Assembly (NCBI GenBank): GCA_905221615.1
Contig: CAJNDT010000001.1
Span: forward strand, 2,221,894 to 2,285,893
Direction: 5' to 3'
DNA: 64,000 bases
Source of the DNA: Symbiodinium sp. CCMP2592
Taxonomy: Eukaryota > Sar > Dinophyceae > Suessiales > Symbiodiniaceae
In this document: positions 13,726 to 46,771 of the stretch, piece by piece
How the letters are laid out: each line of letters opens with the position of its first letter
Position numbering within the stretch: position 1 is the stretch's first letter
Notes under the pieces: generated by a model
Told to the model about the DNA's origin: nothing
Database searches by the model: none
Seen by the model: the letters and a program-made list of their open reading frames with translations, nothing else
Program-made: the position numbers and the translations under genes

Positions 13726-13731
13726 GTTTTC

Positions 13732-13747: not shown

Positions 13748-13827
13748 AAAGGGCCGCCCGCCTCACAAAGTCCGCTACAGCGGTCGGCCTCGCCGAACGC
13801 TTAACCAAGCGGATAAGAGGCAGCACA

Positions 13828-16379: not shown

Positions 16380-16654
16380 AGACTCCAAAGGGTCTTAAAA
16401 ACCTTCTGAAGAAATCCCGCAAATATGCGGTTAAATCTCCTGTTGAAGAGAAGTCTAAGGTCCCAGGAGCTGATGACGGGACGGAGGTAAGACCACTTGA
16501 GTCAAGAGAATACCCGGCTCCTGGTACAGACTCACCTACAGGTGAAGAGATTGTCGCAGAACCTTCGCCATCTCTTCCCATTGCTCTTCGCAGGATTCAT
16601 GAGAAGCTTAAGGACCCTGTAGAACTCTATAAGCTTCACCTTAAGCACCGTCAT

Positions 16655-19600: not shown

Positions 19601-21694
19601 TCCATGCCTCGGTACATGCATGGCGGACCCGTAGACATCAGAGAGGTAACATCAAGAGTGAGGTCAGACCGAACACGGTATAAACCCACTAAAAGGTTTC
19701 GATCTGACATCCGTGAAGAGTATGATCTTCTCACGGAAGAGGACAAGGCCTTATCTCTAAGTTCCTCCAGGAACTCAGCGAACTTAACCCAGAAGGCACA
19801 GCGGAAGGAGGCAACCGCCAAGGAAAAGCGTGAGATGAAGAAACAGTTTGATGAAGCGAAAGCAGCAGAATATCAGAGCTGGCTAGACAATGATGTCTTT
19901 GAGCTCGTCGATACACGGAAACTCGGAAACATCCGAAATTATGTCACTGGTCGATGGGTCCTGACTCTAAAAAGAGACAAGGACGGAAACTTCCTTAAGT
20001 GCAAGGCCCGATGGGTCCTGAGAGGTTTCCAGGATCGACAGAAGGACATTCAGCAAACTGATAGTCCTGCTGCGAGTCGCCCAGGTTTCCGCTTAGCGAT
20101 TCAACTAGCAGCTAACAAGCTGTGGAATTTGACACACATCGACTTAAAGACTGCTTTCCTGCAGGGTGAAGCCTATGATGAGTCGAGAGACATAATCTGT
20201 CAGATTCCTCCTGAAGCAGGTTATCCTTCCTACATTGCAGCGAGGATGAAGAAACCCGCTTATGGACTTAACGATGCACCTCGAAGATGGTGGAACATCG
20301 TTGATAAGGCACTCCTGTCTTATGGCCTGGTGCCAACCCGTGCGGATCGCTGTACATATGTTCTGTATGGTAAGAAGTCTGCAACAGCAGATGCTGAGCT
20401 CAAGAAGTCTCAGCCAAAGACCATGGAATCAGCGATTGACTATCTCCTAGATCCCATAGCAGGCAACAATGCCAAGGGTAGACAGGTACATGGAGTAGTC
20501 TGTTTGCATGTAGATGACCTGTGCATGGCCGGTGATGACACCTTTCGTAAGGCCGTGATTGAATCGATCAAAAAGGAATTTGCAGTAGGTTCTGAAGATA
20601 CGAATGATATTATGTTTGTAGGACAGAGATTAGTCTGGAAGGATGCTACAGCATCAGTGCCAGCACATATCTCAGTAAATCAGAACCTAGCTGTTGAAGC
20701 TCTAGAAGAAATTGTTTTTGACAAGAAGCTCAACAATGAGCAACAATGCACACCACAGCAGCACACTGCTTATAGAAGTGTTTTAGGACAGATCAACTGG
20801 CTACAAAGCCGGACTCAAGCTCACATCTGTTATCGCTTCAGTCGGTGTGCGAGCAAGGCTGCCAAGCCTACTATCGGTGATATCCGAGAATTGAACAAAC
20901 TTGTTAGGATTTTGAAGTCTACCGAAGTAGAATTGCGTTTTTGGCCGCTGAAAGGAAATCTCAGAATCCTCGGTTACCCTGATGCTTCCTACAGGAACAA
21001 TGATGACAAATCATCTCAGAGAGCACATGTTATTTTCCTTGCTGAAGATCGAAATCCAAAGCTAAAGGGAATGAAACAATCAGCAGCAGCTGCTTCTTCC
21101 AAGAAGAACGATTTCTCTGAATCCTCTATTAAGGAAACATCCTCGAGAGGTAGCCTGGTGGATTATGAGTCTCACAAGATTACGACAACCACAATGTCCA
21201 CAACAGTGGCAGAGCTTAACGCACTGATGCGTTGCTTTGGTACCTGCCTGTTCCTCAAGGGACTTTGGGCAGATCTCTCATCAGAGACCGTACCTATACA
21301 TATCAGAACAGATGCGAACAATCTTGTGACAACAGCAGGCACGACACACCTTCCAGAGCAAAAGGAAACTCACCATCTTATACAGATGCTTCGTAAGGAA
21401 TCCAACTCTGGATCATTAGATGACCTAGCTCATGTAAGCTCGAAGTACTGCCTAGCTGATGCATTAACAAAGCATTCGGCACAACCTGATGAGCTTATCA
21501 AGGCTCTGGAAACAGGAAACTTACCAGAAACAGACATTCATCCACCCTTCCGTGAACTCCTTCAACATAAAGCTTTCACTGTTCGGTGGATTATAGACAA
21601 CCTTAGGAATGCCGCTACAGCGGTAGCCTTCCTTGGAATTGATGTCTCAACAGAGATTTACCGATTATTTTACTGCCAAGGAACATGGTGGTAG
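16655..21694 (+). CDS. Integrase, methyltransferase-like, RT and RNase H block of copia pol (copy A)
   Basis: This open block has 1,679 codons. The same frame is open upstream to about 16182, so the ATG at 16655 is not the natural start. An HHCC-like zinc region (H-x3-H, then C-x2-C near codons 31-34) precedes the integrase core with D60, D120 and E153. A basic integrase C-terminal region follows. Residues about 391-500 look like a Rossmann-fold methyltransferase: F-L-E-L-Y-G-G (motif I), S-P-D-H at 451-454 and L-E-N-P at 494-497. A long Pro/Ser-rich acidic linker leads to the copia RT, with the V-D-D catalytic site at 1286-1288, and to RNase H, ending at codon 1679. The product would copy and integrate the element. 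The RT/RNase H part is identical in protein to copy B. Confidence 0.93.
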   Translation: MSTDQFKRRTKALQIPKEIYELYDQLVKKCSACQEHVRAPSRAKISGLRSETFGDLTFVDHGELPIPGKDSRLVFLILYDGATNLLTAEVVQDKEEHTTMSIMNDYFEKFQINPKVVVGDQAFMTPKMEAYYNRQNIKPVATGPGTPWPNRAEAAVRLLKHQIKLILQILKDGDPQYNGITMKYGNLVRQACLARNSSITYGGVTPLEMAFGRRPRDVITPENADPNQLTGNPTDTEVTARAIKELANRAYQEARQSDDLRRDLAARLSMTQGPFSLGDKVFYWSEDKSKIGSTGSKHGSWLKGKVISELGGSMVGVDLGTRIVRVNISKLRKNYDITSDVEIPLAPDEETLTSEGSDHASCMVTFDASLQSTDLTIPHQECHWQVTSTGKIDFLELYGGSPRMSHKAALSGLRVGQPVDLRSGLDLEQPQGRSNLLRIIKEQEPTIIVMSPDHSQWSSWYSQWKKGSAKRLSVLKFCESVADHQMKLGRYFVLENPYYSRLWSSPEAKRLFSNHKISYEVCNLQAYGMKDPTGYYESKSSIFMHNLPPQVLIPLQRHSAKTKSPTSPPGDEKGIQGYGLKTKLAQVYPYEFCETFASCLARFLKRDAYASHLSLVTDILEYSGDECLQGLSELLDQEYSLLTTNPLKDSKLLQDPKIRSLVARVNSLSSKTELPLHHSKPSPSLDALVSDITRLRSRLLPGSGFEQCTLYRGTFGTVKALTSVTDGVLVFWNKKKPNSTMTCCLPHQVSWNKVHPSTFSGVLFQMTGGKTSPSVRTPPDVIMSDEEVSPSDPSEPMSTNRSRITSDDVSMPEPDQPMPPGTPPSRPPPPVPPPRLPAVSSDEPVAPARAKPRVHPPPRVPSPRRLGGDVSPRSSSERKVSPHKQKSPSQVPTPKPKPKAHPQGPILPLQQDEEDTEEELVPDDPGQPSAPPHTSGSPEPESDAESENTRYYSDEEGDLVVDEKDWVLLTEEQKLCSNTGSFSMPRYMHGGPVDIREVTSRVRSDRTRYKPTKRFRSDIREEYDLLTEEDKALSLSSSRNSANLTQKAQRKEATAKEKREMKKQFDEAKAAEYQSWLDNDVFELVDTRKLGNIRNYVTGRWVLTLKRDKDGNFLKCKARWVLRGFQDRQKDIQQTDSPAASRPGFRLAIQLAANKLWNLTHIDLKTAFLQGEAYDESRDIICQIPPEAGYPSYIAARMKKPAYGLNDAPRRWWNIVDKALLSYGLVPTRADRCTYVLYGKKSATADAELKKSQPKTMESAIDYLLDPIAGNNAKGRQVHGVVCLHVDDLCMAGDDTFRKAVIESIKKEFAVGSEDTNDIMFVGQRLVWKDATASVPAHISVNQNLAVEALEEIVFDKKLNNEQQCTPQQHTAYRSVLGQINWLQSRTQAHICYRFSRCASKAAKPTIGDIRELNKLVRILKSTEVELRFWPLKGNLRILGYPDASYRNNDDKSSQRAHVIFLAEDRNPKLKGMKQSAAAASSKKNDFSESSIKETSSRGSLVDYESHKITTTTMSTTVAELNALMRCFGTCLFLKGLWADLSSETVPIHIRTDANNLVTTAGTTHLPEQKETHHLIQMLRKESNSGSLDDLAHVSSKYCLADALTKHSAQPDELIKALETGNLPETDIHPPFRELLQHKAFTVRWIIDNLRNAATAVAFLGIDVSTEIYRLFYCQGTWW

Positions 21695-21918
21695 TCTTGT
21701 TTGCTGGTAGCACAACCATGTGCTGGATTTTCTATTTAGACTGTTTTTCGTCTAAAAGAAAATTTGTGTCTGCAAGCTGCGTTTTCATCAAGATCAAACA
21801 TGTTCATGAGAACTATATGTTCTGTATCATCCGCAGCCGCTTTCAGCCTCGAGCTTCACAGCAATCAGCTTTTTGAGCTAACCAAGCATTCCTGATCCTG
21901 TTTGGTCATCGTGCCGTA
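21695..21918 (+). other. Intergenic leader between pol and the 3' ORF (copy A)
   Basis: This 224-nt stretch has no open frame of note. It contains an A-rich motif (21753-21772) preceded by a short AGAC/GTCT hairpin. The motif recurs with one mismatch just before the 3' LTR. Relative to copy B this leader is about 3 percent diverged, unlike the RT region directly upstream. Confidence 0.6.
21753..21772 (+). promoter_or_regulatory. Purine-tract motif repeat 1 (possible extra PPT)
   Basis: TAAAAGAAAATTTGTGTCTG occurs here and, with one mismatch, at 23053-23072, only 2 nt before the 3' LTR. Copy B keeps both (about 30985-31004 and 23610-23629). The copy next to the LTR may contain the polypurine tract that primes plus-strand DNA. 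This one may be a second priming or processing signal. Function is inferred. Confidence 0.4.
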
Positions 21919-22824
21919 ATGAGCACACGATCAAACTTCCGTAGCCGTGATGGACACGCCCTACCAAGGGCAGTACAGGCGTACCATGAGCGACATCCAC
22001 ACATGGATAGCTCTTACCCCGAGTCTCGTCGGGACGCATCACGTCGACACACCGAACACGGTGGACACCGATTTCACAAACGTGAGAAAAATAACGAGCC
22101 TCCGTACATTTACATGGGTCACCAACAGGTGTTCAATCCGCGTCCAAGAGATCTTGCTGACCTGATCTTACGATGTGGCCATGCGAGTCGAGCAAGGCTC
22201 ACTCCAATCTCCAAACATGGAGTCAGGCTCTACGAAGGAGTCCTCCAAGGACCATGGGACAACAGTCCCCTTTTATACTGGGATAACAACGTGGGCAATC
22301 ACGCTCGTGATCCACGCCAGTTTTGTACGATGCTTGCACATCACCTTCAGACTGGCCTCCCACAGGAGGTAAAACAATGTGTGAGTCTTGATGCATCTGG
22401 AGAATATGACTATTCCTCCTCAGTGCCAAGACTGGTAGAGGTAACAGGTCTCTCACCAGAGATGTGCTTCCACATTCTTTCCAAGACCAACAAGGTCGGA
22501 AGGTGGTTGGCACACTCAACAAGACACCTTCAGAATCAGCGCCAAGATCTCTTTGCTGGCCAACACAATTATCTTCTGGACATGTCCAAATTGGCCGATG
22601 CAGAGCTCGCACAATATTCACCACAAGAGATCGCGCTTGGTGTTCTCCTTAACACCAAGTCCAGGTTCGTGGTCACTATGGTTTATGACCAAGATGGCAG
22701 GGCTGAAACAACAGCTGCCGCCGTTACCATCCCACAGGAGGCAAATGTGATGACCATGACCAAACTTTTCCTCTCGGCAGTTGGAGGACACGGTTCACGA
22801 CGAACTCTAACAAGAGCACAATGA
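21919..22824 (+). pseudogene. Truncated post-pol ORF (Tpt1-like N-terminal part), copy A
   Basis: This open frame has 301 codons and starts MSTRSNFRSRDG. Its first 296 or so codons match the N-terminal half of the copy B ORF at 30839-29013 with about eight amino-acid changes. It then stops shortly after a deletion join at 22805-22817. It keeps an L-I-L-R segment and a K-S-R-F segment that resemble the N-terminal lobe of Tpt1/KptA RNA 2'-phosphotransferases. It lacks the downstream H-A-T and F-D-A parts of that fold. It is unlikely to be active as a transferase in this copy. Confidence 0.7.
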
Positions 22825-23052
22825 AGGGCTGCATAATTCGGTAGTAGAACATTACCAGACCTGATCTTGTACAGATGATCTCTCTGACCAATATGCATGA
22901 GTGTGTGTGCAAAATGAGTGGAGTGTCCTCAGCAGTGTACTTCAGTGCCATACCTAGCATAAATAATATGCTGTTTTTATAATGAGTCCAAACTCCGCAA
23001 CTGTGACAGTGGGCATAACAGTATATGTGTGAATGTGCGGCCATGCTTCCGG

Positions 23053-23072
23053 TAAAAGAAAATTAGTGTCTG
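23053..23072 (+). promoter_or_regulatory. Purine-tract motif repeat 2, before the 3' LTR
   Basis: TAAAAGAAAATTAGTGTCTG ends two bases before the LTR TG. AAAAGAAAA is the only purine run near the LTR and is the best candidate for the plus-strand primer, although it is not directly adjacent to the LTR as is usual. Confidence 0.4.
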
Positions 23073-23074
23073 TT

Positions 23075-23319
23075 TGAAACCATAAACCTCTAAAGGGGTA
23101 GCTCTAACAGGTACCTACAGCAATGGCTGCATGCTCATACATATACATTCCGCTGCCCATTGGCTCACAGTGGTTTTACCATATTGAGACAAGACAAGCT
23201 CTCCTTGCGTAGCAAGACAAAACAACTACTGTCCGTGTGCAGGGCGCTGCCCTTTGATCCTTAGGGAATAACTGGTCATACACCTCCTTACAAGGAGTAT
23301 CCCTTGGGGTGTATCGGCA
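23075..23319 (+). repeat. 3' LTR of copia copy A
   Basis: The LTR is 245 bp. It differs from the 5' LTR only by one missing A (AAAC to AAC in the TTAGGGAATAAAC segment), one missing G in the G5 run, and loss of the last two bases (it ends GGCA). It runs straight into a G-rich spacer. Confidence 0.9.
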
Positions 23320-23358: not shown

Positions 23359-23607
23359 TGTGCCGATACACCCCCAAGGGATACTCCTTGTAAGGAGGTG
23401 TATGACCAGTTTATTCCCTAAGGATCAAAGGGCAGCGCCCTGCACACGGACAGTAGTTGTTTTGTCTTGCTACGCAAGGAGAGCTTGTCTTGTCTCAATA
23501 TGGTAAAACCACTGTGAGCCAATGGGCAGCGGAATGTATATGTATGAGCATGCAGCCATTGCTGTAGGTACCTGTTAGAGCTACCCCTTTAGAGGTTTAT
23601 GGTTTCA
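23359..23607 (-). repeat. 3' LTR of copia copy B
   Basis: The LTR is 249 bp and the same length as the 5' LTR of copy A, with no differences seen. It reads TGAAACC to GGCACA on the minus strand. Confidence 0.92.
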
Positions 23608-23915
23608 AACAGACACTAATTTTCTTTTACCGAAAGCATGGCCGCACATTCACACATATACTGTTATGCCCACTGTCACAGTTGCGGAGTTTTGGACTCA
23701 TTATAAAAACAGCATATTATGTATGCTAGGTATAGCACTGAAGTACACTGCTGAGGAAACTCCACTCCTTTTGCGCACACACTCATGCATATTTGTCAGA
23801 GAGATCATCTGTACAAGATCAGGTCTGGTGATGTTCTACTACCGAATTATGCAGCCACTCATTGTGCTCTTGTTAGAGCCTTGTGATTCACTGTTGTGAA
23901 ACTCTGAGAATTTTC

Positions 23916-26900
23916 TTATCTCAGATTCGGATCCAGGTTTGGATCATAGGCTCGAGCGTAGACGTTCGGATGTGGCTCATCCGGGTCTGAGTGGTCTTCT
24001 TCGGAACTTGAAAAGATTCCGAATAATCTGTTCTCAGCCCTGGTGAAGGCGGCATCTGCAGTATCATATCCATGGTTGGATGTTGTCGCCTTTGGCTCGG
24101 CCTTTGGAGCAGCTTGTGAGCTGACTGGAGTTGCCTTGGCTTTTGCCGGTTGCGGCTGCTTAGCCTTTGCCCGTTCAGCCCTTCTTCTTTCAAGCTGTCC
24201 GTCTGAGGACGCCCATGATCTTTCACTTTCATCTCCTGAAGGAGATAAGGCGTGGGCATAAAGGCTATTCCAGTACTGTGGTGCAGAAGGAGTTAGGACT
24301 TCTTCATTGTCAGATTCTGATTGGTCTTCCTCAGAGCTTTGGTCGTCAAAGAGTGTCTCGAGGACATTTTTGAGATTGTTATTTCTTCGCTCTATCTCTA
24401 GTGAGGAATGGACCAATTGGTTAAAGACTGTCCTTGAGTCCTTCAGTGCCGTGAGAAGGATTTCCACTCTGGATAGAGTATCTTGGATCGTGTCAAGATG
24501 TTCCTTTCTTTCCTCCTTGTCTCTCTGGATAGAGCCTCGCAATGCTTGTGCGATTCTGAGGAGGTCTGTGTATTTCGCAAGAGGCATAGTTACCGTTTGA
24601 TTGTCATGTATGACAGTTGTTTCGTCGCCGCTTAAGTTCCTGAATAGGACTTCCACGACTGGTAGGAACTCCGTGCTCCACGGTTCCTCTTCATCATATG
24701 TTTCTACGTGCTGTAGCACGCGTTGTGTAAACTGGCCGGCTGCTTCTACCGTTGCATCGATAGAGCTGACGTGTCTTGATACTATGTTTCGGCACGTAAC
24801 GTTAATTGCCTGGCCTTGATTGGCTTCGTCAAGTGCAGCGTCTGCATAGGTGCAGAGTCCACTGTTGTGGGCTTCTCTAGCTGCCTTTCGTTGAATACGC
24901 CGATTTTGACCTCCTCTTCTGGTAGGACCTTTTGGTCTTGGAGGATCAGAAGGTACTGTTCCTTTCGCCTTCGGCGGAGGACTCTTAGGTGGAGGTGACA
25001 TGTTAGCCTTGTTAGGCCCTGGTGGCATTGCCTTGGGCGCTGATGACGATGCGGCACTTGGGAGTGCAGATGTACCTCTGGCCTTTGCCGAGGATCCCTT
25101 AGGGATCGATGTGTAGGTAATCTGCATGGCTTCCTCGGCCATTTGTGCATGCAAGGCATCCTGGAATAATTGTGTCATGTGAGGAGTGTTACTTGCATCA
25201 TCGTAAGTCTGGAAGCGCTCAATATCTCTTTCGGTGCCACGTGGTCGTGTATCACCTCTTTGGAAAGGATCATTCCTGCGAATCTCCGCAACTTGTACTG
25301 CATGGAGGCAGTTTTTGCACAGCACCTTCTTGCAGACATCTCTTGCTTGCTTAAGCTGGTAACAGCTGTCTGAGAGGTGGTAGACTTCGCTTCGGGAAGT
25401 ATGCCAGATAGGTCGCAGATCAGTTGTTTCTCCGGAATTAACCCTGTTGGGTCCTAAAGGTTCACGCGTCTGCGGTTCATCCTCGGGTTCGAGGAATGGA
25501 ACTCTTTGGTTCGCTGCTGCTCTTGATTTTGGTTGTTGGCGCTCCATACATCTGATAGGAGGCCTGGTAATCTGCTTCCACATCCAGTGTAAGCCCATTA
25601 GCAGCAGGAACACATTCCACGTGATGCTGAAGACGGAGAAGTCTTGCTCACTGGTTAGTGAGTCTGGAAGTGAAGTTTCATCAGTCTTGGTAGACTCTGC
25701 GTTTGCTCCACCTCGGTTGCGGTGTCCGAACCAGCCCGACAACCCCGCTGCTGTAGCAGCTGTTCTGAGTGCCTTGCCGCTCGGAGCAGACGGTGGACGC
25801 GATGCCTTCCTTCTTCTCCTCCGGCTGGAGGATTCGTCCTCTTGTTCCTCTTCATCTCTCTGAGCAGACATCAAGTTTGATGTTTCTCTTTCGTGTTCTT
25901 CGATGTCACTTTTTGTTGGTGACGGTTCTTCTTCTAGTCCATCCAGCTCTTCCAAAGACATGTTGAGCTTGTCAACAATATTGGTTCTTTGAGGCCTGGA
26001 CCTTGATCTTGGTAGATCTTGTTGTGAAGAGGACGATGATTCCTGGTTCCTTCTTGGAGGAGGACCTTCAGGCTCGCTGGGACGTTCAGGCTGTGGCCAC
26101 TCCCAGAATCTTCCATATCTGTGATGGCTACCTGATGGTTGCGATTTGTCGTACCAGCTGTTGCCGGATGAGTAAACGAATGAATCGTTGTAACCCCAGT
26201 ATTCAGCATTACGCTGCTTGTAAGCCTTTCGCTTGTCAGCGATCTTCTGGACCTGGGCATCTGACCGGTTGTGTTTCCCTTTTGTAAGGATTGGTTGTAT
26301 CGTGAAGCCCAATGGGCTATGCCAATCTTTGTCAGTGGGACCCAACCATAGGTCAAGGTTAGAAAAAGTTGAATAGTACTGCTTGACTGAAACAAACAGA
26401 CGGATATCAATATCCCTGTTGTTGTTCGTGTCCTGCCACATATCTGAGATTCGTTCCCAGTATGTTCTTTCAGCGGCAGGTGTGACCTCTCTTGGACTAG
26501 GTGACGCCGTGTGCGGCGTTTTACTCCAGTCAAGGATATAACTGTTGATACAGTCAAGGTCAGCAACTTTCTTCGCCGGGTCCGCCGGTAGACGATCTGC
26601 ACGTGCCAGTCTGTGCTGGTCGGAGTTGTTCAAGCAAAGATGTCGCACTTGTGAGTGCCTTCCTGCTATTCTGTTGAATGCTGCAAGTTTCTTCTCCAGG
26701 TATAGAGAAAACAAACTGTTTCGCGGGTGAACGTCTCCACCTTTTAAGGTGAGCCTCGACGCAATATTATTGAGATCTCCCGCTATCACATCCGGTTTAA
26801 AAGGGAGAATCTCGTTGAGGAACGCGTTCACCAGTTCGCGTCTCTGTTCTTCCTTATGAGTCATGAACGAGTTGAAATGGACGATCGCGATGGTGATGAC

Positions 26901-28151
26901 CTTGTAAGGCCCTTTTGTACACCACATCTCGTCAAGATCGTTAGATGCTTCTTGTGAGAAGATCTCTGCGTATGTCTCAAAGTCTTCCTCTGGTGGCTCA
27001 TCACCCTCGACATGGCCGTTCCATTCACAGAGAATCGGCGAGGGGTCGAGGTTCGACAGTGTCAGGCAAGCCTCTGGTGAGAGGTAAGAGCCATCAGTGG
27101 GTCCATCCTTGTCAGGATTTTTGCCCTTGAGTGGGTCATATCCGATAATCTGCATGAACTCGTCTCTCGTCATCCTTTGGCCAGAATTTGGGTGGACCCA
27201 TTCTTTTGCCTCTGGTATGGTACTGTGGTACCCGAATGTGAGGCGGCACACCGCACCGTGGCATGCCCACAGTCGCTTCTTGGTACCACCATTCTTAGGC
27301 TTCATTGTTCGATGACGGTAAAAGTGGTGGACGAGAGCGATGTCTGTCGTTGGGTCACCCTTGACTCCGATGTACATTGAGGGTGCCTCAGGCTCCTTGG
27401 GAGGAGAGTGGATTAGCATCCCTCTGTATTCGTGTTTTCGCATGGTTGCGATTGAGTACTCTGACGCAAGTGCTCCTGCCTCGAGTACGAGGGTAATATG
27501 AGCTGAATTGTTGAAGCACATGTCAATAAGAGGGTGATAATCGAATCCCTTCTCAGGTTTGAGCTTCTTTTTGGGATTCCCTGCGGGCACCGGCGCTCGA
27601 TCCATATTTCCCCAGTTGAATACCACTAGATTTAGCGATACGCTATCTGGGTTCGAGCCTTCAATGTATTCTCTCTTCTCATTGACACCGGCCATCCTAT
27701 TGCGAACTATCTCGTAATGTGCATCGAGCACCAGTTTGTCTTCGTGGCCAGTAAGAGTGAGAAAAGAAGCCGGGTGGCTTGTTCTAGAGTCCTTGATGTT
27801 GATGTGACTCTTGTTAACGCTCTTATATTCCTCCAGGGTTGGAGCCTCTGTGGAGCTGTCATACGTATTCGGAGGATTGTTCCTGATATCATCAAGGCTG
27901 TATGGATCTACGCCTGGATGGTCCTTTTCGAACATGCTTCTTGCGTGTTCGCAATACATGTTGATTTTCTGGACTGCCAAATCTACGTCCTCATGTGTGA
28001 GGATGGCCTCGTATAAAAACTGACGCTCATCTGAGGTCATTCCTGCTCTCACCTTTGGAGGTCTCAAGGCAATCGATTGGCAAGACGCACTCGCACATCC
28101 GTTGTTTACCCTGTGGGGTAAGTCGACAGTCTGCACATACAATCGTTCCAC
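23916..28151 (-). CDS. Large post-pol protein with endonuclease/exonuclease/phosphatase-like domain
   Basis: This open frame has 1,411 codons. The more likely start is the internal ATG at 28040 (codon 38), which overlaps the end of the preceding ORF by 14 nt. Between about residues 170 and 620 the motif order resembles the EEP nuclease fold: F-N-W-G-N (about 175), V-L-E-A-G (about 220), V-H-F-N-S (about 424), G-D-L-N-N (about 457) and W-H-S-P-L (about 612). A Ser/Arg-rich region and a hydrophobic segment that could span a membrane follow at about 830-853. Next comes a Cys/His cluster (Y-H-L-S-D-S-C, then L-C-K-N-C, about 920-950). The C-terminal third is Pro/Ala-rich with a likely coiled coil. 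EEP nucleases are typical of LINEs, not copia elements. The assignment rests on motif order and could be wrong. Confidence 0.6.
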   Translation of the reverse strand: MERLYVQTVDLPHRVNNGCASASCQSIALRPPKVRAGMTSDERQFLYEAILTHEDVDLAVQKINMYCEHARSMFEKDHPGVDPYSLDDIRNNPPNTYDSSTEAPTLEEYKSVNKSHINIKDSRTSHPASFLTLTGHEDKLVLDAHYEIVRNRMAGVNEKREYIEGSNPDSVSLNLVVFNWGNMDRAPVPAGNPKKKLKPEKGFDYHPLIDMCFNNSAHITLVLEAGALASEYSIATMRKHEYRGMLIHSPPKEPEAPSMYIGVKGDPTTDIALVHHFYRHRTMKPKNGGTKKRLWACHGAVCRLTFGYHSTIPEAKEWVHPNSGQRMTRDEFMQIIGYDPLKGKNPDKDGPTDGSYLSPEACLTLSNLDPSPILCEWNGHVEGDEPPEEDFETYAEIFSQEASNDLDEMWCTKGPYKVITIAIVHFNSFMTHKEEQRRELVNAFLNEILPFKPDVIAGDLNNIASRLTLKGGDVHPRNSLFSLYLEKKLAAFNRIAGRHSQVRHLCLNNSDQHRLARADRLPADPAKKVADLDCINSYILDWSKTPHTASPSPREVTPAAERTYWERISDMWQDTNNNRDIDIRLFVSVKQYYSTFSNLDLWLGPTDKDWHSPLGFTIQPILTKGKHNRSDAQVQKIADKRKAYKQRNAEYWGYNDSFVYSSGNSWYDKSQPSGSHHRYGRFWEWPQPERPSEPEGPPPRRNQESSSSSQQDLPRSRSRPQRTNIVDKLNMSLEELDGLEEEPSPTKSDIEEHERETSNLMSAQRDEEEQEDESSSRRRRRKASRPPSAPSGKALRTAATAAGLSGWFGHRNRGGANAESTKTDETSLPDSLTSEQDFSVFSITWNVFLLLMGLHWMWKQITRPPIRCMERQQPKSRAAANQRVPFLEPEDEPQTREPLGPNRVNSGETTDLRPIWHTSRSEVYHLSDSCYQLKQARDVCKKVLCKNCLHAVQVAEIRRNDPFQRGDTRPRGTERDIERFQTYDDASNTPHMTQLFQDALHAQMAEEAMQITYTSIPKGSSAKARGTSALPSAASSSAPKAMPPGPNKANMSPPPKSPPPKAKGTVPSDPPRPKGPTRRGGQNRRIQRKAAREAHNSGLCTYADAALDEANQGQAINVTCRNIVSRHVSSIDATVEAAGQFTQRVLQHVETYDEEEPWSTEFLPVVEVLFRNLSGDETTVIHDNQTVTMPLAKYTDLLRIAQALRGSIQRDKEERKEHLDTIQDTLSRVEILLTALKDSRTVFNQLVHSSLEIERRNNNLKNVLETLFDDQSSEEDQSESDNEEVLTPSAPQYWNSLYAHALSPSGDESERSWASSDGQLERRRAERAKAKQPQPAKAKATPVSSQAAPKAEPKATTSNHGYDTADAAFTRAENRLFGIFSSSEEDHSDPDEPHPNVYARAYDPNLDPNLR

Positions 28152-29391
28152 AGGAATAGCAAAAATAGCCTGTAGGCTGTTTGCAGAGATCGCAGAGAGG
28201 ATTGTCTGGTCGAGGCAACATTCGTATCCTTTGGTTAAGGCTCATGGCTGTCCTGCGTACTCCTACAAATCTCTCCTTGTTAGGAGGCGCAGAGGAGGAA
28301 GATGCTGACTCTCTGGGTCTGTCCCACTCCTCTTCGTCAGGAGCCTCAGAATCTTTGATCATGAGTGGACTTCGGATTTTTCGATTCCATCGACTAACCC
28401 AGATTCTTTCTTGCATTTCCTGTTGCATAGCCGGGTTAGACGGTGACTTCGAAATTCGGTGCTTGGTATTTTCTCGAATCCGAGCGCTGATGCGCTCATG
28501 TTCTCTTACGAGATCTTCCTCATCAGCAGGTTCCTCGTATTCGAGGTTGAGCTTGCTTCTGTTGACTCGATAATAGGTTTCTGTTTCAGGATCGAAGAGA
28601 ACTAGGAATGTTTCCTTCTCCTTTTTAGGAGATTTTGGTTTTCTTGGCTCTTCGTCTGAACTCTGAACATATTCTGTTTCAGGCTTTGGTTGGTCAAGTT
28701 TGACCTTCTCAAGTTTCTCTGTGATCTCTTTCGTGGGAGATTCTTTCTTCTCCTCTGATGCTGCAGGTGCAGAGTTCGTCTTGTGAGACGGATTAACATC
28801 AACTCGGAGTTCTGAGGATGACGAAGATTTTGAGCTCTTCTCGCTCTTCCCGCTCTTTCCGCTTGACGCCGTCTCAGCGTCTGATTCTTCGTCACAATCC
28901 TGGTTAGGATCTGGTTCCTCAGGTTCCGTCTCTGTTCCAGAAGATTCTTCCTTGGGAGGAATTACGTTGGCAGAAGTATCCTGGACAGGTTCTGGAGGTT
29001 TGTGACCTGTCGTTATCTTAAGAACTTCAGTGGCGCTTCTGGTGCCGTCGGAGTTCCAGAGCTGTCCCATAAGACTGTCCGGATCCTTGTCGGCCTCGGC
29101 CTGCCGGGCGAGCTTGGATCTCGGGTGGATCTCCTTTGCAGTAGTTTCCGTGTTCGGAGGTACTTCACCTGCAGAAGCGGTTTGCTCCTGGTTTGGAGCT
29201 GTGTCAGCCTCTGTATTTGGCAGAGAGAAAGACTTCTTGTGAGAAGATCTAGCCTTGGGAGGCTCTGGAGGCAGATTTCGCCTTGACATCTTGCGAAGTG
29301 TCGATTCGATCTCTTGCCGTAATTTGAGCACCATTTCTTCGACTCGTAAGTCGCTGACGGCATTTGTTCGGAGCAGTGGTCTGCCCACCAT
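28027..29391 (-). CDS. Acidic linker with C-terminal Cys-rich zinc finger (post-pol module)
   Basis: This open frame has 454 codons. A short helical region near the start (E-E-M-V-L-K-L-R-Q-E-I) is followed by a long Glu/Ser/Lys/Pro-rich, probably disordered stretch. Near the C-terminus (about residues 398-440) there is a Cys cluster C-D-L-C, C-Y-S-C, C-A-D-C, C-E-C that looks like a treble-clef or B-box type zinc finger. It overlaps the upstream ORF by 379 nt, but in the overlap this frame looks like real protein and the other does not. The join is more likely a frameshift in a longer polyprotein than two independent genes. One missing base near 29395 would fuse it to the upstream ORF. No family is recognised. 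Confidence 0.55.
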   Translation of the reverse strand: MVGRPLLRTNAVSDLRVEEMVLKLRQEIESTLRKMSRRNLPPEPPKARSSHKKSFSLPNTEADTAPNQEQTASAGEVPPNTETTAKEIHPRSKLARQAEADKDPDSLMGQLWNSDGTRSATEVLKITTGHKPPEPVQDTSANVIPPKEESSGTETEPEEPDPNQDCDEESDAETASSGKSGKSEKSSKSSSSSELRVDVNPSHKTNSAPAASEEKKESPTKEITEKLEKVKLDQPKPETEYVQSSDEEPRKPKSPKKEKETFLVLFDPETETYYRVNRSKLNLEYEEPADEEDLVREHERISARIRENTKHRISKSPSNPAMQQEMQERIWVSRWNRKIRSPLMIKDSEAPDEEEWDRPRESASSSSAPPNKERFVGVRRTAMSLNQRIRMLPRPDNPLCDLCKQPTGYFCYSCGTIVCADCRLTPQGKQRMCECVLPIDCLETSKGESRNDLR

Positions 29392-30839
29392 GGTCCGATG
29401 CTCTTGAGCTCATCGTATTGCGATGATACCCAGAGTGTTTCAGAGGGTGCAAATACGGCGCTAAGAGTACGGGCATGCACTACATCTGGTGTAGCAAACA
29501 TCCCCGCTTGCGACTGCCACATGTTTGTGACTTCGTTCACTACGTTATTTGCGTCGAATACTAGAAGCAGTGCCTTGTTGGCGCGCAGCAAAGTCGGATT
29601 AGGATTCGCCAGGTTTAGCGATGAAAACTGAACAGTGTCCCTATTGGAACGACTGTTTTCATTCACGAGAGCTTGAAGACCTGGTGAGGTCACCACCTGA
29701 GATAAGAGGTTTGATGGTACCAGACCATGCCTCAGGATTGAGGATAGTGCATGCAAGTCCGTGGCATGCATGATGTAACAAGGGTTGTTCTGTCGAACAA
29801 AATCTTCCATGCCTACGGGCCTTGGAGCGTTAGTGGAGAGACGCTGTGCATGAGACTGCACAGGATTGCTCCCCGTTGCCATGAAGTCTGAGATGGTCAT
29901 GTGTGACCTTGGCCTCTCTTCTTCAGGATCTGGTTCTTCAGCTCTTGGTAGAGTTCTTCGTGAGCCGTGTCCTCCCACTGCTGAGAGGTAAAGTTTGGTC
30001 ATGGTCATTACATTTGCATCCTGTGGGATGGTAACGGCGGCAACTGTTGTTTCAGCCCTGCCATCTTGGTCATAAACCATAGTGACCACGAACCTGGACT
30101 TAGTGTTAAGTAAAACACCAAGCGCGATCTCTTGTGGTGAATATTGTGCTAGCTGTGCATCGGCCAACTTGGACATGTCCAGAAGATAATTGTGTTGGCC
30201 AGAAAAGAGATCTTGGCGCTGATTCTGAAGGTGTCTTGTTGAGTGTGCTAACCACCTTCCGACCTTGTTGGTCTTGGAGAGAATGTGGAAGCACATCTCT
30301 GGTGAGAGACCTGTTACCTCTACCAGTCTTGGCACTGAGGAGGGATAGTCATATTCTCCAGATGCGTCAAGACTCACACATTGTTTTACCTCCTGTGGGA
30401 GGCCAGTCTGAAGGTGATGTGCAAGCATCGTACAAAACTGGCGTGGATCACGAGCGTGATTGCCCACGTTGTTATCCCAGTATAAAAGGGGACTGTTGTC
30501 CCATGGTCCTTGGAGGACTCCTTCGTAGAGCCTGACTCCATGTTTGGAGATTGGAGTGAGCTTTGCTCGACTCGCATGGCCACATCGTAAGATCAGGTCA
30601 GCAAGATCTCTTGGACGCGGATTGAACACCTGTTGGTGACCCATGTAAATGTACGGAGGCTCGTTATTTTTCTCACGTTTGTGAAATCGGTGTCCACCGT
30701 GTTCGGTGTGTCGACGTGATGCGTCCCGACGAGACTCGGGGTAAGAGCTATCCATGTGTGGATGTCGCTCATGGTACGCCTGTTCTGCCCTTGGTAGGGC
30801 GTATCCATCACGGCTACGGAAATTTGATCGTGTGCTCAT
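29013..30839 (-). CDS. Post-pol ORF with Tpt1/KptA-like ADP-ribosyltransferase-fold domain
   Basis: This open frame has 608 codons starting MSTRSNFRSRDG. Its coding character ends near 29396, and the last 125 or so codons look like out-of-frame sequence over the next ORF. Segments in order resemble RNA 2'-phosphotransferase (Tpt1/KptA): L-I-L-R-C-G-H (about 84-90, usual L-R-H), N-T-K-S-R-F (about 250), Y-I-M-H-A-T with I-L-R-H-G-L (about 353-371, usual H-G-T...GL), and L-L-R-A-N-K-A-L-L-L-V-F-D-A (about 415-430). Tpt1 removes the splice-junction 2'-phosphate from tRNA using NAD+. Some catalytic positions differ (the LRH histidine is Cys), so activity is uncertain and a general ADP-ribosyltransferase fold is an alternative. 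The start lies 225 nt after the pol stop. Confidence 0.5.
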   Translation of the reverse strand: MSTRSNFRSRDGYALPRAEQAYHERHPHMDSSYPESRRDASRRHTEHGGHRFHKREKNNEPPYIYMGHQQVFNPRPRDLADLILRCGHASRAKLTPISKHGVRLYEGVLQGPWDNSPLLYWDNNVGNHARDPRQFCTMLAHHLQTGLPQEVKQCVSLDASGEYDYPSSVPRLVEVTGLSPEMCFHILSKTNKVGRWLAHSTRHLQNQRQDLFSGQHNYLLDMSKLADAQLAQYSPQEIALGVLLNTKSRFVVTMVYDQDGRAETTVAAVTIPQDANVMTMTKLYLSAVGGHGSRRTLPRAEEPDPEEERPRSHMTISDFMATGSNPVQSHAQRLSTNAPRPVGMEDFVRQNNPCYIMHATDLHALSSILRHGLVPSNLLSQVVTSPGLQALVNENSRSNRDTVQFSSLNLANPNPTLLRANKALLLVFDANNVVNEVTNMWQSQAGMFATPDVVHARTLSAVFAPSETLWVSSQYDELKSIGPWWADHCSEQMPSATYESKKWCSNYGKRSNRHFARCQGEICLQSLPRLDLLTRSLSLCQIQRLTQLQTRSKPLLQVKYLRTRKLLQRRSTRDPSSPGRPRPTRIRTVLWDSSGTPTAPEAPLKFLR

Positions 30840-31063
30840 TACGGCACGATGACCAAACGGGATCAGGAATGCTTGGTTAGCTCAAAAGGCTAGTTGCTGT
30901 GAGGCTCGAGGCTGAAAGCGGCTGCGGATGGTATAGAACATAGAGTTCTCATGAACATGTCTGATCTTGATGAAAACGCAGCTTGCAGACACAAATTTTC
31001 TTTTAGACGAAAAACAGTCTAAATAGAAAATCCAGCACATGGTTGTGCTACCAGCAAACAAGA
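30840..31063 (-). other. Leader between pol and the post-pol module (copy B)
   Basis: This is the counterpart of 21695-21918. It holds the A-rich motif at about 30985-31004 and no gene. Several substitutions separate it from copy A. It could serve as a subgenomic promoter, splice or internal-entry region for the downstream ORFs, but no specific signal was recognised. Confidence 0.45.
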
Positions 31064-32512
31064 CTACCACCATGTTCCTTGGCAGTAAAATAATCGGTAA
31101 ATCTCTGTTGAGACATCAATTCCAAGGAAGGCTACCGCTGTAGCGGCATTCCTAAGGTTGTCTATGATCCACCGAACAGTGAAAGCTTTATGTTGAAGAA
31201 GTTCACGGAAGGGTGGATGAATGTCTGTTTCTGGTAAGTTTCCTGTTTCCAGAGCCTTGATAAGCTCATCAGGTTGTGCCGAATGCTTTGTTAATGCATC
31301 AGCTAGGCAGTACTTCGAGCTTACATGAGCTAGATCATCTAGAGATCCAGAGTTGGATTCCTTACGAAGCATCTGTATAAGATGGTGAGTTTCCTTTTGC
31401 TCTGGAAGGTGTGTCGTGCCTGCTGTTGTCACAAGATTGTTCGCATCTGTTCTGATATGTATAGGTACGGTCTCTGATGAGAGATCTGCCCAAAGTCCCT
31501 TGAGGAACAGGCAGGTACCAAAGCAACGCATCAGTGCGTTAAGCTCTGCCACTGTTGTGGACATTGTGGTTGTCGTAATCTTGTGAGACTCATAATCCAC
31601 CAGGCTACCTCTCGAGGATGTTTCCTTAATAGAGGATTCAGAGAAATCATTCTTCTTGGAAGAAGCAGCTGCTGCTGATTGTTTCATTCCTTTTAGCTTT
31701 GGATTTCGATCTTCAGCAAGGAAAATAACATGTGCTCTCTGAGATGATTTGTCATCATTGTTCCTGTAGGAAGCATCAGGGTAACCGAGGATTCTGAGAT
31801 TTCCTTTCAGCGGCCAAAAACGCAATTCTACTTCGGTAGACTTCAAAATCCTAACAAGTTTGTTCAGTTCTCGAATATCACCGATAGTAGGCTTGGCAGC
31901 CTTGCTTGCACACCTACTGAAGCGATAACAGATGTGGGCTTGAGTCCGGCTTTGTAGCCAGTTGATCTGTCCTAAAACACTTCTATAAGCAGTGTGCTGC
32001 TGTGGTGTGCATTGTTGCTCATTGTTGAGCTTCTTGTCAAAAACAATTTCTTCTAGAGCTTCAACAGCTAGGTTCTGATTTACTGAGATATGTGCTGGCA
32101 CTGATGCTGTAGCATCCTTCCAGACTAATCTCTGTCCTACAAACATGATATCATTCGTATCTTCAGAACCTACTGCAAATTCCTTTTTGATCGATTCAAT
32201 CACGGCCTTACGAAAGGTGTCATCACCGGCCATGCACAGGTCATCTACATGCAAACAGACTACTCCATGTACCTGTCTACCCTTGGCATTGTTGCCTGCT
32301 ATGGGATCTAGGAGATAGTCAATCGCTGATTCCATGGTCTTTGGCTGAGACTTCTTGAGCTCAGCATCTGCTGTTGCAGACTTCTTACCATACAGAACAT
32401 ATGTACAGCGATCCGCACGGGTTGGCACCAGGCCATAAGACAGGAGTGCCTTATCAACGATGTTCCACCATCTTCGAGGTGCATCGTTAAGTCCATAAGC
32501 GGGTTTCTTCAT
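31064..32512 (-). CDS. RT C-terminal half and RNase H of copia pol (copy B)
   Basis: This open block has 482 codons and matches the end of copy A pol residue for residue. It carries the RT catalytic V-D-D (in L-H-V-D-D-L) and RNase H acidic residues in G-Y-P-D-A-S, V-A-E-L-N-A-L and R-T-D-A-N-N. Its first ATG is internal. An extra C in a C run near 32530 separates it from the upstream block. Role: reverse transcription and removal of the RNA template. Confidence 0.9.
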   Translation of the reverse strand: MKKPAYGLNDAPRRWWNIVDKALLSYGLVPTRADRCTYVLYGKKSATADAELKKSQPKTMESAIDYLLDPIAGNNAKGRQVHGVVCLHVDDLCMAGDDTFRKAVIESIKKEFAVGSEDTNDIMFVGQRLVWKDATASVPAHISVNQNLAVEALEEIVFDKKLNNEQQCTPQQHTAYRSVLGQINWLQSRTQAHICYRFSRCASKAAKPTIGDIRELNKLVRILKSTEVELRFWPLKGNLRILGYPDASYRNNDDKSSQRAHVIFLAEDRNPKLKGMKQSAAAASSKKNDFSESSIKETSSRGSLVDYESHKITTTTMSTTVAELNALMRCFGTCLFLKGLWADLSSETVPIHIRTDANNLVTTAGTTHLPEQKETHHLIQMLRKESNSGSLDDLAHVSSKYCLADALTKHSAQPDELIKALETGNLPETDIHPPFRELLQHKAFTVRWIIDNLRNAATAVAFLGIDVSTEIYRLFYCQGTWW

Positions 32513-35500
32513 CCTCGCTGCAATGTAGGGAAGGATAACCTGCTTCAGGAGGAATCTGACAGATTATGTCTCTCGACTCATCATAGGCTTCACCCTGTAG
32601 GAAAGCAGTCTTTAAGTCGATGTGTGTCAGATTCCACAGCTTGTTAGCTGCTAGTTGAATCGCTAAGCGGAAGCCTGGGCGACTCGCAGCAGGACTATCA
32701 GTTTGCTGAATGTCCTTCTGTCGATCCTGGAAACCTCTCAGGACCCATCGGGCCTTACACTTAAGGAAGTTTCCGTCCTTGTCTCTTTTTAGAGTCAGGA
32801 CCCATCGACCAGTGACATAATTTCGGATGTTTCCGAGTTTCCGTGTATCGACGAGCTCAAAGACATCATTGTCTAGCCAGCTCTGATATTCTGCTGCTTT
32901 CGCTTCATCAAACTGTTTCTTCATTTCACGCTTTTCCTTGGCGGTTGCCTCCTTCCGCTGTGCCTTCTGGGTTAAGTTCGCTGAGTTCCTGGAGGAACTT
33001 AGAGATAAAGCCTTGTCCTCTTCCGTGAGAAGATCATACTCTTCACGGATGTCAGATCGAAACCTTTTAGTGGGTTTATACCGTGTTCGGTCTGACCTCA
33101 CTCTTGATGTTACCTCTCTGATGTCCACGGGTCCGCCATGCATGTACCGAGGCATGGAGAAAGAACCTGTGTTACTGCACAGTTTCTGTTCTTCTGTGAG
33201 AAGGACCCAATCCTTCTCATCTACGACCAAGTCACCTTCCTCATCGGAGTAATACCTTGTGTTCTCTGACTCGGCATCGCTCTCCGGTTCTGGTGAGCCA
33301 GAAGTGTGAGGAGGAGCGGACGGTTGTCCGGGGTCGTCTGGGACCAGTTCTTCTTCAGTGTCTTCTTCATCTTGTTGTAATGGAAGAATGGGTCCCTGTG
33401 GATGTGCCTTCGGTTTAGGTTTAGGTGTCGGCACCTGTGGAGGTGATTTCTGTTTGTGCGGCGAAACTTTCCTTTCCGATGAAGACCTTGGCGACACATC
33501 ACCCCCCAGACGCCGAGGAGACGGAAGGCGAGGAGGCGGATGTACGCGAGGCTTAGCCCGAGCAGGAGCCACGGGCTCATCGGAGGAAACGGCCGGTAGT
33601 CGCGGTGGAGGTACGGGAGGAGGAGGACGCGACGGCGGCGTGCCGGGAGGCATCGGCTGATCTGGTTCCGGCATAGAAACATCGTCAGATGTGATCCGTG
33701 AGCGATTAGTGCTCATTGGTTCTGACGGGTCTGACGGCGAGACCTCTTCGTCCGACATGATTACATCCGGCGGTGTTCGCACGGACGGTGAAGTCTTGCC
33801 GCCTGTCATCTGGAATAGCACCCCCGAGAAGGTTGATGGGTGTACTTTGTTCCAGGAAACCTGGTGCGGCAAGCAACACGTCATAGTCGAATTGGGCTTC
33901 TTCTTGTTCCAGAAAACAAGAACGCCATCAGTTACACTTGTGAGTGCTTTAACTGTTCCAAATGTACCTCTGTATAGAGTACACTGTTCGAAACCAGACC
34001 CTGGTAAGAGTCTTGATCTAAGGCGAGTAATGTCTGACACCAAGGCATCAAGGGACGGTGATGGTTTGGAATGATGCAATGGTAATTCAGTTTTACTCGA
34101 TAAAGAATTTACTCTAGCAACAAGTGATCTGATTTTCGGATCTTGCAGGAGTTTCGAATCCTTGAGAGGATTTGTCGTCAAAAGTGAATACTCCTGATCA
34201 AGAAGTTCCGAAAGTCCCTGGAGGCATTCATCTCCAGAGTATTCTAGTATGTCTGTGACTAAAGACAGATGAGATGCATACGCATCTCGTTTCAGGAATC
34301 TTGCCAAACACGAGGCAAAGGTCTCACAGAATTCATAAGGATACACTTGTGCGAGTTTCGTTTTAAGACCGTAGCCTTGAATACCCTTTTCGTCTCCTGG
34401 TGGAGATGTTGGAGACTTCGTTTTGGCAGAATGCCTCTGGAGAGGAATTAAAACTTGCGGTGGCAAGTTGTGCATAAAAATCGAAGATTTCGATTCATAG
34501 TATCCTGTTGGATCTTTCATGCCATAGGCCTGTAGGTTACAGACCTCATAGCTGATCTTATGATTAGAAAACAGGCGTTTTGCTTCTGGTGAAGACCAGA
34601 GCCTGCTGTAGTATGGGTTCTCAAGAACAAAGTAACGTCCGAGCTTCATTTGGTGGTCTGCGACCGATTCACAGAATTTTAAAACAGAAAGTCTCTTGGC
34701 AGAGCCTTTCTTCCACTGTGAGTACCAGCTAGACCACTGAGAATGGTCAGGTGACATAACAATAATAGTAGGTTCTTGTTCCTTGATGATCCTAAGAAGA
34801 TTGGAGCGACCTTGCGGTTGCTCAAGATCTAGACCGCTACGCAAATCGACTGGCTGACCTACTCGAAGACCTGATAGGGCAGCCTTGTGACTCATGCGGG
34901 GAGATCCGCCGTAGAGTTCTAGAAAATCAATCTTCCCAGTACTGGTGACCTGCCAGTGACACTCTTGATGTGGAATCGTTAGGTCTGTCGACTGCAGGGA
35001 AGCATCGAAGGTGACCATGCAACTTGCGTGGTCAGAACCTTCTGACGTCAGAGTTTCCTCATCAGGCGCGAGAGGAATCTCCACATCAGATGTTATGTCA
35101 TAGTTTTTCCTCAGTTTTGAGATATTGACGCGGACGATGCGTGTTCCAAGATCCACACCTACCATGGATCCTCCGAGTTCGGAGATCACCTTTCCTTTTA
35201 GCCAAGATCCATGTTTGGACCCAGTGGATCCAATCTTAGACTTATCTTCTGACCAGTAGAAAACCTTATCTCCCAAAGAGAAAGGTCCTTGGGTCATTGA
35301 CAGTCTGGCTGCAAGATCTCTACGCAGATCATCAGATTGGCGTGCCTCTTGGTAAGCCCTGTTGGCAAGCTCCTTAATGGCTCTCGCAGTGACTTCCGTA
35401 TCAGTTGGATTACCTGTCAACTGATTGGGATCAGCGTTCTCTGGTGTTATAACATCTCGAGGACGCCTTCCAAAGGCCATTCTAAAGGAGTAACTCCTCC

Positions 35501-35531
35501 GTAGGTAATCGAAGAGTTTCTTGCCAAACAT
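32487..35531 (-). CDS. Integrase C-terminus, methyltransferase-like domain and RT N-terminus (copy B)
   Basis: This open block has 1,014 codons. The first 18 or so codons are out of frame, and the natural frame resumes at the missing A near 35482. It holds the integrase C-terminal region and the methyltransferase-like region (F-L-E-L-Y-G-G near 34914, S-P-D-H near 34745, L-E-N-P near 34617). A Pro/Ser-rich acidic linker and RT motifs up to the K-T-A-F-L-Q-G segment follow. It ends at the extra base near 32530. Differences from copy A are few and cluster in the Pro-rich linker. Confidence 0.88.
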   Translation of the reverse strand: MFGKKLFDYLRRSYSFRMAFGRRPRDVITPENADPNQLTGNPTDTEVTARAIKELANRAYQEARQSDDLRRDLAARLSMTQGPFSLGDKVFYWSEDKSKIGSTGSKHGSWLKGKVISELGGSMVGVDLGTRIVRVNISKLRKNYDITSDVEIPLAPDEETLTSEGSDHASCMVTFDASLQSTDLTIPHQECHWQVTSTGKIDFLELYGGSPRMSHKAALSGLRVGQPVDLRSGLDLEQPQGRSNLLRIIKEQEPTIIVMSPDHSQWSSWYSQWKKGSAKRLSVLKFCESVADHQMKLGRYFVLENPYYSRLWSSPEAKRLFSNHKISYEVCNLQAYGMKDPTGYYESKSSIFMHNLPPQVLIPLQRHSAKTKSPTSPPGDEKGIQGYGLKTKLAQVYPYEFCETFASCLARFLKRDAYASHLSLVTDILEYSGDECLQGLSELLDQEYSLLTTNPLKDSKLLQDPKIRSLVARVNSLSSKTELPLHHSKPSPSLDALVSDITRLRSRLLPGSGFEQCTLYRGTFGTVKALTSVTDGVLVFWNKKKPNSTMTCCLPHQVSWNKVHPSTFSGVLFQMTGGKTSPSVRTPPDVIMSDEEVSPSDPSEPMSTNRSRITSDDVSMPEPDQPMPPGTPPSRPPPPVPPPRLPAVSSDEPVAPARAKPRVHPPPRLPSPRRLGGDVSPRSSSERKVSPHKQKSPPQVPTPKPKPKAHPQGPILPLQQDEEDTEEELVPDDPGQPSAPPHTSGSPEPESDAESENTRYYSDEEGDLVVDEKDWVLLTEEQKLCSNTGSFSMPRYMHGGPVDIREVTSRVRSDRTRYKPTKRFRSDIREEYDLLTEEDKALSLSSSRNSANLTQKAQRKEATAKEKREMKKQFDEAKAAEYQSWLDNDVFELVDTRKLGNIRNYVTGRWVLTLKRDKDGNFLKCKARWVLRGFQDRQKDIQQTDSPAASRPGFRLAIQLAANKLWNLTHIDLKTAFLQGEAYDESRDIICQIPPEAGYPSLHCSEDEETRLWT

Positions 35532-39011: not shown

Positions 39012-39027
39012 CCGGGCTCCGCTACCA
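39012..39027 (-). other. Primer-binding site of copy B
   Basis: This site is identical to 13732-13747 on the other strand, TGGTAGCGGAGCCCGG, just inside the 5' LTR. An initiator-Met-like tRNA is the inferred primer. Confidence 0.7.
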
Positions 39028-46692: not shown

Positions 46693-46771
46693 ATATAGTA
46701 CAGTATAGAAAGGAACGCTCTGGACTCTGGATTTAAGTTGGTAATTGCTTGCTTAGGCTTCAACTTGTACT

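Follow-up and report, generated by a model that had tools for sequence, protein, structure and literature searches.

A pol-linked third open reading frame with a Tpt1-like domain in a Ty1/copia-type retrotransposon family of Symbiodinium

Introduction

A stretch of 64,000 nucleotides from the genome of the coral-symbiont alga Symbiodinium sp. CCMP2592 (called here the window) contains a copia-type retrotransposon, copy B, in which 7 kb separate pol from the 3' long terminal repeat (LTR). What does this interval encode, and does it belong to the element? An earlier note on this DNA had described it as three overlapping open reading frames (ORFs) with resemblances to the RNA 2'-phosphotransferase Tpt1, to a Cys-rich finger and to an EEP nuclease. 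We report here that the interval holds a third ORF (also called the module) which is linked to pol at a constant position, is present in high copy number, is under purifying selection and is related in sequence to Tpt1, its relation to the EEP enzymes being less firm.

Results

The third ORF is a single frame that follows pol

Long ORFs are present on the minus strand where the earlier note had placed them, between the pol stop and the 3' LTR (30839-29013, 29391-28027 and 28040-23916, hereafter ORF1 to ORF3). Their combined length of about 2,300 residues was confirmed, and their description as three separate ORFs was not: they are pieces of one ORF that is broken in copy B, since 19 of the 72 matches scored in the genome are uninterrupted, with a single stop-to-stop open frame of 2318-2324 codons, and since one continuous polypeptide spans ORF1, ORF2 and ORF3 in each of two predicted proteins, P0004 (1900 aa) and P0005 (1477 aa). 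These 72 matches, each at least 86% identical, were obtained with ORF1 from the 1.098-Gb assembly (5383 contigs; 1617 first-look candidates). Counted from the ATG, the protein is 2304-2310 aa long in the eight open copies examined.

Twenty of the 72 loci were retrieved, 12 from the 23 best-scoring and eight chosen for their open frame. In all 20, pol ends at position 2571-2574 of the retrieved stretch and the module starts at position 2801, with the same leader between them; the pol match is split across frames or partial in a few (L018, L023-L025), and L020 carries an internal deletion inside the module. A second search, with protein P0010 (63 scored of 2825 candidates), ranked above the window's own kind six places that share 66-67% identity with P0010, as well as contig C1417 at 64%. 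In one of these six, the divergent copy L061, pol ends at 573 and the module begins at 802, so that the order pol-leader-module is kept. The module thus lies directly after pol in the 21 loci inspected, including one divergent subfamily, and the proposed search for pol sequences followed by the module found this arrangement in the 20 retrieved loci and in L061. The possibility, raised at the outset, that the module occurs at this locus alone as a nested insertion is excluded by the 72 matches and the linkage to pol. Misassembly and contamination are likewise ruled out by the multi-copy open frames and the constant linkage, and conservation of the sequence at other loci and in other Symbiodinium shows that it is not a chance open frame. 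A search of Rfam at the gathering threshold returned no match.

Relatives were also found among predicted proteins; those from S. microadriaticum, strain KB8 and sources without a species name share 62-67% identity. The closest named one, P0003 of Symbiodinium sp. CCMP2592, is 99% identical across 35% of ORF3. In P0006 (annotated 'RE2', S. microadriaticum) the RVT_2 domain and the module are joined in one predicted gene, pol and module are mixed in P0008 (CCMP2592) and P0009 (S. microadriaticum), and P0007 (strain KB8) contains parts of the module; P0004 to P0009 are gene predictions, in which parts may be skipped or fused. Proteins from outside CCMP2592 are 48-66% identical to the window ORFs (matches of at least 390 residues), and the third ORF is present in at least two named Symbiodinium lineages. 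Protein searches, of limited sensitivity, gave no named hit outside Symbiodinium, P0001, P0002, P0004, P0005 and P0010 being without a species name, and scans of viral and prokaryotic contigs with ORF1 gave no relative.

The third ORF is under purifying selection

The ratio of nonsynonymous to synonymous substitution rates (dN/dS) over the whole ORF was 0.122 (28 pairs, eight open copies). When calculated in bins of 200 residues, it was lowest for residues 1001-1200 (0.028) and highest for residues 1-200 (0.259). The bins that cover the Tpt1-like part have values of 0.259, 0.108 and 0.16; those that cover the EEP-like part, at residues about 1070-1514, have 0.028, 0.184 and 0.145. When copy B is compared with its neighbour in the window, copy A, pol shows a dN/dS of 0.015, the gag region 0.14 and the portion of ORF1 that both copies retain 0.25 (few changes). 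Purifying selection has kept the third ORF functional in many copies.

ORF1 contains a Tpt1-like domain

The Tpt1/KptA family (PF01885) was the top family for a slice of ORF1 (E = 0.016; E = 0.024 with the whole ORF; 15.1-15.7 bits) and was also matched in P0004 (E = 0.025). The scan was extended to five of the six further pieces from the P0010 search (L062, L063, L064, L065 and L067), and the divergent copy L063 gave a match (E = 3e-5, 24.6 bits) that covers positions 3-175 of the 177 of the profile, that is, both lobes. An hhalign comparison of the module (33 rows, 13 after filtering, effective number 1.6) with eight Tpt1 sequences (the host-type L030, the repeats L029, L031 and L037, E. coli KptA and three plasmid KptA) yielded P values of 4.9e-6 to 1.5e-4 across eight masters, with the C-lobe aligned, and none of 100 column permutations reached the score with each of three masters. 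A comparison with fewer sequences gave P = 0.0035 with L037 as master.

The N-lobe landmarks TRH, NTKSRF and GGH follow the order of LRH, KQRF and QGHS in Tpt1. The arginines of TRH, K-x-RF and NRD occur in order and are kept in every covering row shown but for one loss in L061; P0004 has Q for the K of K-x-RF. We take the four catalytic residues of Tpt1/KptA to be R, K/H-x-R and R. R138 of yeast Tpt1, presumably catalytic, is the Arg of RNHVH and equals the Arg of NRDTVQF in the module. Another N-lobe site, LRCGH (R85 of ORF1), was discarded, its Arg not being conserved in relatives and TRH at 201-203 being the better candidate. The module resembles Tpt1/KptA in the nearly complete profile match of L063 and in key arginines that are mostly kept, and differs from it in scoring below the cut-off, in about 90 extra residues within the domain, in HAT for HGT and in its location within a retroelement protein.

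ORF3 contains an EEP-like region, and other motifs accompany the two domains

In ORF3, the residues N, E, H, GDxN, D and DWH are found in the order of the EEP enzymes, which we take to be N, E, H, GDxN, D and DH; the same holds for L061, for P0004 and, where covered, for P0010 and P0006. When 14 module rows (five after filtering) were compared by hhalign with 23 EEP references, of which nine were bacterial (YbhP, seven plasmid proteins and XthA) and 14 were EEP regions of this genome, 45 columns (VHFN...GDLN) aligned with P = 4.4e-4, and none of 200 permutations reached the score. The nine bacterial references gave P = 0.0018 and the 14 from this genome P = 0.0084; alignment of the EEP-like region with Tpt1 gave P = 0.14. 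A regular expression for the EEP motifs was matched by none of 20000 shuffles, but it was written post hoc and is given no weight.

The Cys-rich finger of the earlier note was borne out, as zf-B_box passes its cut-off in the window copy (Table 1); the match is weaker in relatives (12.5 bits in P0005, 8.8 bits in L061, not listed for P0004). ORF3 also contains a lone hydrophobic segment and a Cys/His motif, for which the Pfam scan gave no match. In the window copies, a stop closes the module frame upstream of the ATG. In L061 (526-1947), P0002 and P0004, no stop closes the frame ahead of the shared ATG, and a hydrophobic N-terminal stretch is added. From its sequence, the module protein likely comprises a Tpt1-like domain, a B-box-like finger, an EEP-like core, a possible membrane segment and the Cys/His motif.

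A number of results count against these assignments. PF01885 never reaches the 26-bit Pfam cut-off, the score of L063 being the best; its E-values are 0.04 in L067, 0.11 in L062 and 0.18 in L065, the scan gave no match in P0005, L064 or P0001 (which ends inside the domain), and in P0004 the unrelated family PF15761 (E = 0.011) slightly outscores it. The comparison with fewer sequences gave P = 0.19 with L029 as master, the N-lobe by itself is not significant (best P = 0.047), and the module reads HAT for the HGT of Tpt1, with Thr or Ser in place of the His of R-x-H. Regarding the EEP-like region, PF03372 is not matched in the six proteins that cover it (window ORF3 and a slice thereof, P0004, P0005, P0010 and L061), the NCBIfam scan of six proteins was empty, XthA as the only reference gives P = 0.29, and P0005 departs at the last motif, close to its end. 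Furthermore, dN/dS amounts to 0.26 in residues 1-200 and to 0.18 and 0.15 in two of the three EEP-region bins. AlphaFold2 models of ORF1 1-500 (five input rows) and ORF3 1-640 (six input rows) had predicted local distance difference test (pLDDT) values of 33.5 and 30.8, and hence provide no fold evidence; searches of PDB sequences with module profiles or slices returned nothing, or unrelated proteins at E 0.4 and worse.

The profile and structure searches that had been suggested for these ORFs thus sustain the Tpt1-like domain and the finger at the profile level, the AlphaFold2 models being uninformative on folds. For the former, the match stays below the Pfam cut-off, is missing in P0005 and L064 and is not significant in the N-lobe alone. 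The EEP resemblance is upheld by the match of the 45-residue core and by the motif order, and not by Pfam or NCBIfam.

Anatomy of the element and of its truncated neighbour

Copy B extends over 15.9 kb (39281-23359), and its pol stop is followed by a leader of about 225 nt, the module and then about 310 nt up to the 3' LTR. Its paired TG...CA LTRs, tRNA-type primer-binding site and RVT_2 domain identify the element as a Ty1/copia-type LTR retrotransposon. RVT_2 was matched in the copy A equivalent (residues 1244-1403; E = 3.4e-17, 63.3 bits, cut-off 31.6), and a weak rve match lies upstream of it, in copia order (residues 223-312; E = 0.024, 15.3 bits against a cut-off of 32.6). By resemblance, we take initiator-Met as the candidate primer tRNA of copy B. 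The gag-pol of copy B, previously described as complete, is so in its content, and its frame is interrupted. A pol segment between integrase and reverse transcriptase (17765-18529, plus strand), which by eye recalls a cytosine methyltransferase (FLELYGG...), received no support from Pfam and PDB searches and was not retained.

Copies A (plus strand) and B (minus strand) are arranged tail to tail. Copy A is not an element without the module, for it retains the first 300 or so codons and lacks about 6.06 kb of the remainder; its sequence resumes just beyond the module stop, about 270 nt ahead of the 3' LTR. The match between the two copies stops at A 22817 (B 29941) and restarts at A 22805 (B 23878), and the deletion is bounded by a 13-nt microhomology whose two sites in B differ at one base. 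This junction at a microhomology indicates that copy A derives from the B type by internal deletion, an outcome that either a template jump or a deletion would be expected to give. In the 9.35 kb that precede the deletion, the copies differ by 109 substitutions and eight one-base indels, all eight within LTR, gag or pol. The four LTRs are identical save for short-homopolymer indels and the last two bases of the copy A 3' LTR, in which the CA end comes two bases early; both insertions consequently look young. Sequencing error may account for the homopolymer indels of the LTRs, a possibility that also matters for the frame breaks of A and B. G- or C-rich runs border both copies (13436-13476, 23320-23358 and 39282-39340). 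Copy A has G runs on both sides; copy B has a G run on the left and a C run on the right and therefore no clear target-site duplication. The LTR of locus L020 likewise ends in a C run.

A 20-bp motif flanks the module. TAAAAGAAAATTWGTGTCTG, with up to three mismatches allowed, occurs four times in the window, in all cases exactly, against 0.01 expected in shuffles, and its sites lie before and after the module position in copies A and B alike. When the leader of the window copy is compared with that of L061, the upstream motif falls within their longest stretch of identity. This motif may act as a second site of plus-strand priming, comparable to the central tract of certain retroelements, or may be a scar left when the module was acquired.

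Table 1. Coordinates of the features in the window
Feature	Position	Strand	Remarks
5' LTR of copy B	39034..39281	-	about 248 bp, TG...CA ends
Primer-binding site TGGTAGCGGAGCC	39015..39027	-	pairs with tRNA 3' end including CCA; 6 nt off LTR
gag-pol of copy B (integrase then reverse transcriptase)	31064..38931	-	frame-interrupted; pol stop 31064-31066
20-bp motif TAAAAGAAAATTTGTGTCTG, first module flank	30986..31005	-	identical in divergent copy L061
Leader between pol and third ORF	30840..31063	-	93-100% identity to copy B across 20 loci
Third ORF (module)	23916..30839	-	split into three ORFs in copy B
Tpt1-like domain	29487..30272	-	ORF1 residues about 190-451; landmarks TRH, K-x-RF, GGH, HAT, NRDTVQF
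B-box-like zinc finger	28120..28206	-	PF00643, E = 1.9e-5, 25.2 bits, cut-off 24.1
EEP-like nuclease region	26298..27632	-	N142, E187, H388, GDLN 421-424, D496, DWH 572-574 (ORF3 from 28040)
Lone hydrophobic segment, possibly transmembrane	25578..25640	-	mean hydropathy 1.43, residues 801-819
Cys/His motif H..H..C..C..C..C, possible zinc ribbon	25302..25403	-	read from sequence
20-bp motif TAAAAGAAAATTAGTGTCTG, second module flank	23610..23629	-	adjoins 3' LTR, expected polypurine-tract position
3' LTR of copy B	23359..23607	-	
Copy A, same family	13477..23319	+	9.8 kb; keeps module start 21919-22824
TTTAGGG-type repeats/minisatellite	45537-45590, 46637-46693, 48346-49240, 49465-49555, 53516-53561, 54796-54854, 57472-57508		

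Discussion

On balance we favour the view that this Ty1/copia family carries a third gene for one multidomain protein of about 2300 residues that would act on RNA ends. Its place between pol and the 3' LTR, its large size and a single weak hydrophobic segment, predicted from hydropathy only, also suit an env-like surface or membrane protein with incidental enzyme resemblances, as does the hydrophobic N-terminal stretch that P0002 and P0004 carry upstream of the shared ATG. We consider this improbable, since the Tpt1 similarity spans the whole domain, the EEP catalytic-type residues are conserved in order, the window copies have a stop upstream of the ATG and the hydropathy peak is just 1.43. 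A slightly better case, though still an unlikely one, can be made for captured domains that are enzymatically dead and now serve as an RNA-binding or assembly scaffold: HAT stands for HGT, no His follows the NRD-type Arg, P0004 has Q for K, the last EEP motif reads DWH where DH is usual, and the linkers are long and rich in Ser, Pro and charged residues. Against such decay, the three arginines are kept apart from the one loss in L061, and the EEP-type residues are kept across subfamilies.

The idea that the module is another mobile element or a host transcript, nested and amplified as a passenger, is largely refuted and we give it very little credence. The two near-identical 20-bp motifs that bracket the module could be an acquisition scar. 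However, one of them sits at the LTR junction and the other in the longest run of leader identity between the window and L061, all 21 loci inspected have the module at one position behind pol, predicted proteins from both S. microadriaticum and CCMP2592 combine pol with module sequence, and the frame is under purifying selection and open over 2.3k codons in 19 of 72 matches.

How a protein acting on RNA ends would work is a guess, and we regard the following scheme as doubtful. As the element replicates, the Tpt1-like part would free RNA termini of 2'-phosphates or ADP-ribosylate them, the EEP-like part would cut phosphodiester bonds, and the finger and the membrane segment would place the protein. 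The protein might target RNA of the element itself or its tRNA primer; alternatively, it might target host RNA and so counter an RNA-based defence of the host. It would be made from a separate message, and a putative acceptor site for the spliced leader of dinoflagellates may lie in the leader.

It is considered rare for LTR elements to carry additional enzymatic domains, and an LTR element with an m6A demethylase as cargo is known (PMC9289625). Extra sense ORFs 3' of pol in plant elements of the Athila/Bagy2 type (aORF-3S) are described as env-like; the present ORF is similar in lying in sense orientation between pol and the 3' LTR with a possible membrane segment, and differs in its size of about 2300 residues and in its domains, no Tpt1, B-box or EEP being named in the parts of that source consulted (PMC7264820). 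The bdelloid rotifer elements Juno and Vesta also are LTR elements with a captured enzymatic ORF3, a DEDDy exonuclease or a GDSL esterase, for which RNA 3'-end processing was proposed, whereas enzyme folds, host and element clade differ (PMC5408684). SymbioLINE-Dnmt and SymbioDIRS-Dnmt3 share with our family the Symbiodinium host, the capture of an enzyme domain, there a nucleic-acid-modifying one, and purifying selection; unlike the copia element, they are LINE and DIRS elements with the domain in ORF1 or Pol, and the abundant Symbiodinium copia elements of that report are described as being without any DNMT domain (PMC5890265). In the open PMC literature we found no report of a retroelement third ORF joining Tpt1-like and EEP-like domains. 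Such a conserved ORF would add a new type of cargo, and it would offer a handle on why Tpt1 domains abound on repeats of this dinoflagellate.

This abundance is apparent from a genome search with PF01885, which gave 152 matches, 150 of them scored from 1550 candidates. Among the matches listed, almost every one is full-length, with E 4e-35 or better, and about 100 of these 150 lie in open frames of 663-667 codons, as a high-copy repeat. L030 resembles the host TPT1 gene (Tpt1 E = 4.9e-48, with PDB Tpt1 matches). In the one frame of this kind that was read, at L037 (2664-4655; about 665 codons), a PARP-like match (E = 2.4e-4, below cut-off) precedes a full-length Tpt1 domain (E = 1.4e-39). In a second repeat type, L029 and L036, long open frames encode Tpt1 at full length (E = 2.9e-51 and 8.6e-45); this ORF resembles by eye a retroelement ORF1, and no reverse transcriptase was found within the short flanks examined. 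The mobility of these Tpt1-bearing repeats is deduced from copy number alone. Several kinds of Symbiodinium repeats might have captured Tpt1-type domains repeatedly, in a conflict over RNA ends between the dinoflagellate and its mobile elements, a proposal that we rate as a long shot. If true, the conflict would be 2'-phosphate-based or NAD/ADP-ribose-based, and the 2300-residue protein would be an RNA-repair or counter-defence machine.

Elsewhere in the window, interstitial TTTAGGG-type repeats are present, together with a 74-bp minisatellite containing TTTAGGG-type units.

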